Assembly (NCBI RefSeq): GCF_047663525.1
Contig: NC_092599.1
Coordinates: 25,229,501-25,293,500 of the forward strand
DNA from: Anas platyrhynchos
Taxonomy: Eukaryota > Chordata > Aves > Anseriformes > Anatidae
Direction of reading: 5' to 3'
DNA: 64,000 nucleotides
Below, piece by piece: positions 51,561 to 51,960 of the stretch (within the stretch, counting starts at the first letter, position 1; every line of letters starts with the position of its first letter). The notes under the pieces were generated by a model that saw nothing but the letters and a program-made list of their open reading frames with translations, searched no databases and was not told the DNA's origin. Position numbers and translations under genes: made by a program.

Positions 51561-51960
51561 GACGGTGCGGGGTGCTGGGTGCTCTGCCTGCTGCTCACCT
51601 TCGCCTGACTGTGCACTGCTGCCAATGGTGCTAGAGTAAAATGTGAAGACTGCTCAGATGGCAGTGATGAGAGTGCTTGTGTGAAGAAGATGTGTACTGA
51701 ATCTGACTTTGTGTGCATAGATATCAATAGTGTAACCAACAGAGAGACTGCAAGGACTGGGGTGATGAGCCCCTGAAGGAATGCAACAAAAATGAATGTG
51801 ACTGTCCAGCTGGGAAACTGTGGAGATAGTGATGAATGCCAAAACCCTGGTATCTGTAGTCAACCTGAATCTGTAGTCAACCTGTATCAACCTGAAAGGC
51901 TATCAGATGAATCCTGCTACAGGAACCTGGAAAGGGCCATACGGCAAAGCAAATTAGATA
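51561..51960 (+). pseudogene. VLDL-receptor-like cDNA fragment inside ERV C, copy 1
   Basis: A signal-peptide-like GCWVLCLLLTFA is followed, after a stop, by CEDCSDGSDESACVKK and MCTESDFVC. These are the end of LDLa repeat 1 and start of repeat 2 of VLDLR. Next come pieces of the last LDLa repeat (RDCKDWGDEPLKEC, NEC) and of the second EGF-like domain (DECQNPGICSQ, then LKGYQMNPATGTW). Parts coded by separate exons in the host gene are joined without introns, and large internal blocks are missing, so the source was mRNA. Stops and frameshifts make it non-coding today. LDLR or LRP8 are less good matches. Intact VLDLR binds lipoproteins and reelin at the cell surface. Confidence 0.85.

Follow-up and report, generated by a model that had tools for sequence, protein, structure and literature searches.

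A duck endogenous retrovirus lineage that probably captured VLDLR mRNA and passed it to another retrovirus class

The 64,000-nucleotide stretch of Anas platyrhynchos contig NC_092599.1 analysed here (the window) carries a class I endogenous retrovirus (ERV) that contains coding sequence of the host receptor gene VLDLR without its introns. The same viral neighbours recur around this sequence genome-wide, a reverse transcriptase (RT) fragment and the tail of a surface subunit (SU) resembling that of avian sarcoma and leukosis viruses (ASLV). We conclude, with a probability of roughly 0.87, that VLDLR mRNA was transduced by an ERV lineage of ducks, which has recently spread and from which the cassette reached a second class of retrovirus. 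Directly seen were the joins common to the copies, the exon structure, the three descendant kinds of element and, in one of these kinds, young pairs of long terminal repeats (LTRs).

Intronless VLDLR sequence in the window

The insert occupies window positions 51558-51924 on the + strand and a copy follows 5554 bp downstream. The LDLa and EGF motifs that the original prediction, made from the sequence alone, had reported here were located on the + strand in both copies. A 55-amino-acid frame (51609-51776) matches VLDLR chains in the PDB (E 4.5e-6), and the best DNA match of 51561-51960 to the duck's own spliced VLDLR coding sequence scores 131 bits, against at most 29.5 for 100 block shuffles. 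The host gene lies on contig C35 (L012, L013), where its exons were mapped with splice signals; the exon numbers are those of this analysis. Aligned to this gene, the window pieces are colinear with it from exon 1 to the EGF-B exon, with six internal gaps. In order, they comprise part of exon 1, which encodes the signal peptide and contains an in-frame stop (51558..51627), part of exon 2 with LDLa1 and an internal deletion (51628..51681), the start of exon 3, where LDLa2 begins (51682..51717), part of the LDLa8 exon, joined after deletion of LDLa2-LDLa7 (51714..51785), and parts of the EGF-A exon (51786..51825) and the EGF-B exon (51826..51924), the last of which forms the right end of the insert; all are on the + strand.

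Host introns are absent at all four exon joins crossed by the insert. The predicted intronless, VLDLR-colinear sequence is therefore present, and the alignment to spliced VLDLR that had been proposed for mapping exon borders supports it. The predicted 400-bp extent also held, with the start corrected to 51558 and the signal-peptide coding of exon 1 and the six gaps added. The window frame is damaged by frame shifts and by the stop in the signal-peptide stretch, which 20 of 25 class I copies have in common.

Three kinds of copies across the genome

First-look searches of the genome (1.26 Gb, 42 contigs) gave 678 candidate places with window 51500-52000 as query (40 scored), 873 with a query from EGF-B to EGF-C, which also draws other LDLR-family genes (114 scored), 750 with a peptide of the RT fragment (150 scored) and 718 with the join between RT and VLDLR (150 scored), numbers that are no exact copy number as most candidates were unscored. 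We annotated 59 insert places (L003-L008, L014-L066) and one window unit, 60 in all, and counted 59, leaving out L028, which has the same feature table as L027 and belongs to the same tandem array.

These 59 copies sort into three kinds. Kind A (n = 14) has class II gag, VLDLR and a gp85 tail, kind B (n = 25, including the window) consists of mostly broken copies with class I parts, and kind C (n = 20) has the RT fragment and VLDLR without class I parts, with a gp85 tail in 19 of 20. An A-like LTR lies upstream in 15 of the 20 kind C copies; the filing of the other five (L026, L035, L036, L041 and L059), which have no LTR in the stretch and, in L036, a short gag piece, is less sure.

Stops in the VLDLR frame, with frameshifts left out of the count, occur in none of 14 kind A, 6 of 20 kind C and 21 of 25 kind B copies. 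Stop-free frames of at least 720 amino acids hold 82 of the 150 scored joins, and one further such frame carries TAG; the 82 include at least two kind A places as well as tandem and segmental copies, so that independent insertions are fewer. The original description of the present copies as broken thus applies to the window and not to the family.

Contig C34, which is W-like, holds 45 of the 150 best-scored joins on 1.3% of bases; enrichment on the W is general for bird ERVs. On this contig, the class I cassette is repeated in tandem at C34:6343744-6438309, as an array of twelve equally scoring copies about 8.5 kb apart, of which L027 and L028 were examined. A common 3' flank is seen in three kind A copies from different contigs, L015 (C8), L024 (C41) and L025 (C22), and several cassette copies lie near contig ends, which indicates that segmental duplication adds to copy number.

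Lys-primed elements with a membrane anchor

In kind C, TGGCGCCCGAACAGG, which we take to be a Lys-type primer site, stands directly after the 5' LTR and is exact in 12 of the 14 loci shown. Three insertions are enclosed whole by LTRs and a target-site duplication. Their LTR pairs are identical at 381/381, 382/383, and 187/187 plus 248/248 positions (99.7-100%), and the 6-bp duplications read CCCATG, CCCCAG and, in the third, 5/6 matching bases. The virus had been called old; the window provirus has some age (27 differences over 828 sites between its second and third LTRs), but in view of these three insertions the description does not hold for the family. The third of them, L048, has a stop in the VLDLR frame, so a young insertion need not have an open frame.

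In the less damaged Lys-primed copies a single frame spans the RT fragment, the VLDLR ligand-binding repeats, the SU tail and a membrane anchor of gp37 type. In L065 this frame of 738 amino acids ends in a gp37-type transmembrane subunit (TM) with a hydrophobic span, and a search with the ectodomain of the gp37 part recovers the fusion subunit of ASLV (4jpr, E 1.5e-17). L051 has LDLa1-8, EGF-A and EGF-B almost whole, but with a frame change. The class II traits found in the family are the Lys-type primer site, the 6-bp duplications and the ASLV-like TM, all in kind C, and a class II capsid, identified by Pfam in kind A. A shortened, secreted VLDLR-like protein had been predicted; the product is shortened, but the readable forms are fusions to the gp37-type anchor or to Gag and not secreted proteins.

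Fusions with a second host gene

Kind A elements have a single open frame through gag, a piece of ZNF365, the RT fragment, VLDLR and the gp85 tail. In L024, Pfam identifies Gag_p24 (E 3.3e-32), LDLa (3.8e-64, seven repeats), EGF_CA (1.6e-9) and Avian_gp85 (2.2e-11). In 12 of the 14 copies a second host gene, ZNF365 (zinc finger, coiled coil), contributes this piece, which follows gag in the same frame and precedes the RT fragment (L024:1560-2045 in that element). The label ZNF365 was tested by querying the genome with human ZNF365, which gave 58 matches (all 61 candidates scored): 3 on C6, 2 weak ones on C4 and 53 others. The three stretches on C6 have introns between them, and C6:9742906-9752097 is therefore likely the host gene. 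Among the 53 others, which were checked in part for the presence of VLDLR, 28 are in stop-free frames of at least 1000 amino acids. Kind A has lost the signal peptide, and no membrane anchor was seen in its frame.

Joins, capture and transfer between classes

Exon joins are seamless in all 10 inserts mapped, and viral coding sequence abuts the host part at either end; in the less damaged copies the reading frame continues across these joins. The left neighbour is the thumb/connection region of a class II pol RT, with 64% identity to the public protein P0127 over 144 columns; in the window this remnant spans 51237..51560 on the + strand (tblastn with P0127/P0128, E 7.6e-23/1.3e-23). The right neighbour is identified by Pfam as Avian_gp85, the ASLV-like SU tail. 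At the left join, viral ...SISDTGDG and host ...PGDG have residues in common, and the window and the host both have GGTGACGGTGCGGGG there, the trace expected of template switching at a short match. On the right, 57 of 59 copies end at spliced position 1401, the exceptions being L026, where the stretch ends, and L063. The 3' part of VLDLR is absent from every copy mapped. Pfam found LDLa, EGF and gp85 in the scanned frames and no propeller, and the marks of a VLDLR gene (YWTD propeller, own membrane span, NPxY tail) are lacking there.

Retroviral transduction of host cDNA, as originally proposed, is supported by a spliced and shortened VLDLR mRNA inside a Pro-primed provirus with viral pieces on both sides. 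The Pro-primed virus was probably not the captor, however. Beside VLDLR, the class I copies have a class II RT fragment and often an ASLV-like SU tail, which indicates that the cassette probably came from the Lys-primed class II lineage.

We propose that a class II (Lys-primed, ASLV-like) duck retrovirus picked up spliced VLDLR mRNA by template switching of reverse transcriptase. On the left, a short stretch common to both would have served to link RT-coding RNA to VLDLR exon 1; on the right, the EGF-B exon would have been linked to the env SU tail. No complete pol was seen in the stretches examined, and the elements would move in trans on helper Gag-Pol. Recombination may then have moved the cassette (RT fragment, VLDLR and SU tail) into Pro-primed class I elements, including the window provirus, whose line lacks the SU tail, has a stop and frameshifts and is doubled in tandem. 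In a FastTree phylogeny with the host as sole outgroup, for which no support values were read, L051 branches first, kind A is grouped and kind B is scattered in several places, a pattern suggestive of recombination or of transfer on several occasions.

Had the class I and class II lineages each captured VLDLR on their own, their very different proviral backbones would be accounted for. We consider such independent captures very improbable and reject them, since at the same host positions class I copies are flanked by class II sequence, to the left by the RT fragment and in many copies also to the right by the gp85 tail. An ordinary processed VLDLR pseudogene, with an ERV inserted in it or flanking it by chance, would also be intron-less, but this alternative, which the original prediction had itself named, is scarcely credible and is rejected for the copies examined. 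Against it stand the viral neighbours and end points common to 57 of 59 copies, which are spread over many contigs, and the absence of the 3' part of the gene from every copy mapped. Such pseudogenes would show an mRNA 3' end, poly(A) and a short duplication of their own, whereas in these copies the insert breaks off within the EGF-B exon, where viral sequence takes over.

Several points weigh against capture by a class II lineage followed by transfer. The first-look counts leave the copy number inexact, and the sequences read contain no complete helper provirus. For the class II pol parent, the evidence in this analysis consists of the public proteins P0127 and P0128, which are 64-69% alike. 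Because the host is the sole outgroup, the claim of a single capture rests on the shared joins and not on the tree.

The peptide on the RT side of VLDLR, for a time called 'X', was considered as a third host gene or a native SU and rejected; it is unlike two native env frames (L074, L075) and is in fact RT. An initial protein search with this peptide yielded six short fragments, and searches of PDB and NCBIfam gave nothing of use. Rfam gave no match.

The insert in proteins of other ducks

A search of public proteins, in which 120 of 155 matches were listed, recovered the fusion in a 733-amino-acid protein of Anas zonorhyncha (P0007, 100% over the queried part). Among the matches listed, the fusion is also present in P0011, in P0008, P0010 and P0012-P0014 of A. 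platyrhynchos and in P0009 of A. acuta. 'VLDLR-like' proteins with the insert come from A. acuta (P0022, which starts with the ZNF365 piece), Aythya fuligula (P0015, P0020, P0021) and Mergus octosetaceus (P0018, P0024), and an EGF-like protein of Cairina moschata (P0019) has it as well; the right join was recognised by eye in P0015, P0018 and P0019. The insert or its right join thus occurs in at least four duck genera among the matches listed, Anas, Aythya, Mergus and Cairina. Several duck proteins entered in databases as 'VLDLR-like' or 'EGF-like domain-containing' are retroviral.

Selection and possible roles of the cargo

Most likely, these are helper-dependent mobile elements with a receptor cargo riding along, and a selected role of the cargo is possible. 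The pooled ratio of nonsynonymous to synonymous substitution rates (dN/dS) against host VLDLR is 0.34 in kind A, 0.46 in C and 0.69 in B, values confounded by the host branch. Constraint read from this comparison was rejected for that reason, and counts of distinct substitutions give it no support. Substitutions private to a kind number 36 nonsynonymous (N) to 11 synonymous (S) in A, 91N:34S in C and 52N:21S in B, and those found in one locus only 16:6, 79:31 and 40:18, respectively, where a fraction of about 0.73 N is expected without selection. Substitutions in all three kinds, which may include host-side changes, number 17N:17S. Distinct nonsynonymous changes at cysteine codons number 7 in A, 24 in C and 10 in B. 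The kind-private substitutions show no constraint, which weighs against a selected protein and not against the proposed origin, and at this neutral ratio the open frames may simply reflect youth. Within kind C, pairwise dN/dS is 0.49 for VLDLR and 0.68-0.82 for its neighbours; within kind A it is 0.76 for VLDLR and 0.37 for the gp85 tail. As a sign of constraint these pairwise sequence comparisons are suggestive at most.

We lean slightly towards a purely passive cargo. Mobilisation requires only LTRs, a primer site and packaging, and the neutral ratios of kind-private substitutions and the identical LTRs of young copies agree with frames that are open from youth. VLDLR mRNA would have been captured through its abundance in the oocyte, the cell type that produces germline retroviruses; the yolk receptor of the oocyte in duck and chicken is VLDLR (PMC3162882). 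Two observations point the other way. Spread deletions in kinds A and C keep the frame, although deletions between like repeats may do so without selection, and VLDLR has the lowest pairwise dN/dS within kind C.

Receptor interference, which the original prediction had also raised, appears unlikely. The captured ectodomain, on cells or shed, would act as a decoy that blocks the Env of viruses using VLDLR-type receptors, to the benefit of the element or the host. ASLV subgroup A uses an LDLa-type receptor, and the LDLa repeats in frame with a membrane anchor and the open frames in many copies are consistent with such a role; the neutral ratio of kind-private substitutions, which strike cysteine codons, and the lack of a signal peptide and of a visible in-frame anchor in kind A argue against it.

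More doubtful still is the idea that the Lys-primed elements code for a functional Env, with the ectodomain of a host receptor standing where SU would normally bind its own receptor. If so, particles made with helper proteins would display the ligand-binding repeats of the yolk receptor, and vitellogenin or VLDL would bind to the particle as well as to oocyte VLDLR and so bridge the particle into the growing oocyte, so that a retrovirus would reach the germline by riding yolk uptake. Such entry would fit the young copies and the load on C34, though W enrichment is a general feature of bird ERVs.

Relation to known systems

Among the top results in the open-access literature, with subscription papers mostly outside this scope, we found no report of VLDLR in an ERV. 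Acute transforming retroviruses carry gag-onc or two-gene captures. As in the duck elements, spliced host cDNA stands in frame with gag or env, viral genes are lost and a helper is needed, whereas the duck elements are endogenous and germline-amplified, with a receptor ectodomain and a zinc-finger/coiled-coil protein as cargo. The duck SU tail and TM resemble the env of Alpharetrovirus/ASLV (Avian_gp85; TM structures 4jpr and 5h9c), but most of SU is replaced by the RT fragment and VLDLR, and the primer site is of Lys type. With the avian yolk receptor VLDLR the insert has in common LDLa and EGF modules in the same exon order; it lacks the propeller, membrane span and cytoplasmic tail, and several LDLa repeats are deleted or fused.

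Host mRNA captured by an ERV, with intact frames and several genomic copies, is also described for CrocERV31, with captured nectin3 in the place of env, and CrocERV29, with captured KIT-ligand (PMC4299795). The duck elements differ in having a yolk-receptor ectodomain in frame between RT and env SU/TM, ZNF365 in one kind, and two ERV classes. In Drosophila, passage of the retrovirus ZAM into the oocyte is linked to yolk traffic and the LDLR-family yolk receptor yolkless (PMC1524798); ZAM uses the host pathway and carries no receptor gene, and its relevance is by analogy. A single duck genome shows how a receptor gene is captured and shortened by deletions inside LDLa repeats and from one repeat to another, how one branch carries a second host gene, and how the cassette comes to be shared with another class. 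Some insertions appear recent enough to be polymorphic, which makes origin, selection and function testable in living ducks.

The window provirus and its surroundings

The class I provirus is present twice in tandem, as LTR-internal-LTR-internal-LTR, with all parts on the + strand. Self-comparison places LTR 1 at 48077..48926 (TG..CA; the exact first base is 48077 or 48079), LTR 2 at 53619..54480 and LTR 3 at 59173..60022, and the second VLDLR insert lies at 57112..57478, within internal parts that are identical over 4692/4692 bases. LTRs 1 and 2 differ at 2 of 848 sites, against the 27 of 828 between LTRs 2 and 3, which indicates a provirus of some age and a recent tandem doubling, unless the latter is an assembly matter. 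A target-site duplication was looked for at this provirus and none was seen.

The insert had been placed between gag and the integrase tail and env of a Pro-primed provirus. The 18-base motif of a tRNA-Pro-type primer site is exact (18/18 bases) after LTR 1 (48930..48947) and LTR 2 (54484-54501), which upholds that part of the claim. The C-terminal class I integrase remnant (52016..52090) is a weak match to PF18697 (MLVIN_C; E 0.0016, below the family cut-off), and the gag remnant (49548..50000), which recurs as a piece in further copies of class I, and the env TM tail (53079..53474) were recognised by eye, with no Pfam match for 49785-50018 or 53079-53474. To the right of VLDLR, comparison of copies shows that similarity to the SU-tail side found elsewhere ends with 51925..51942; the window copy has lost the tail. 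With this loss, the stop, the frameshifts and the tandem doubling, no VLDLR-like protein is possible from the window copy.

Window 50193-50526 is 88% alike to L024:3617-3961, in swapped order: the sequence lies downstream of the SU tail in kind A and upstream of VLDLR in the window. Between the env remnant and LTR 2, a short repeat (53460-53617), presumably CR1-like as judged by eye, has the opposite orientation in L019 and L021. Positions 25145-25622, perhaps an LTR of another subfamily, are 94-99% alike to sequence directly flanking the class I cassette in L003, L004, L005, L006 and L008. Further ERV debris includes an inverted pair at 14865-15429 and 20007-20552, 91% alike and akin to the env side of the provirus at 52759-53143. 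The first part of the window (1-14835) consists of nearly 15 kb of the 14-bp satellite TATTGCTGAGGTCC.
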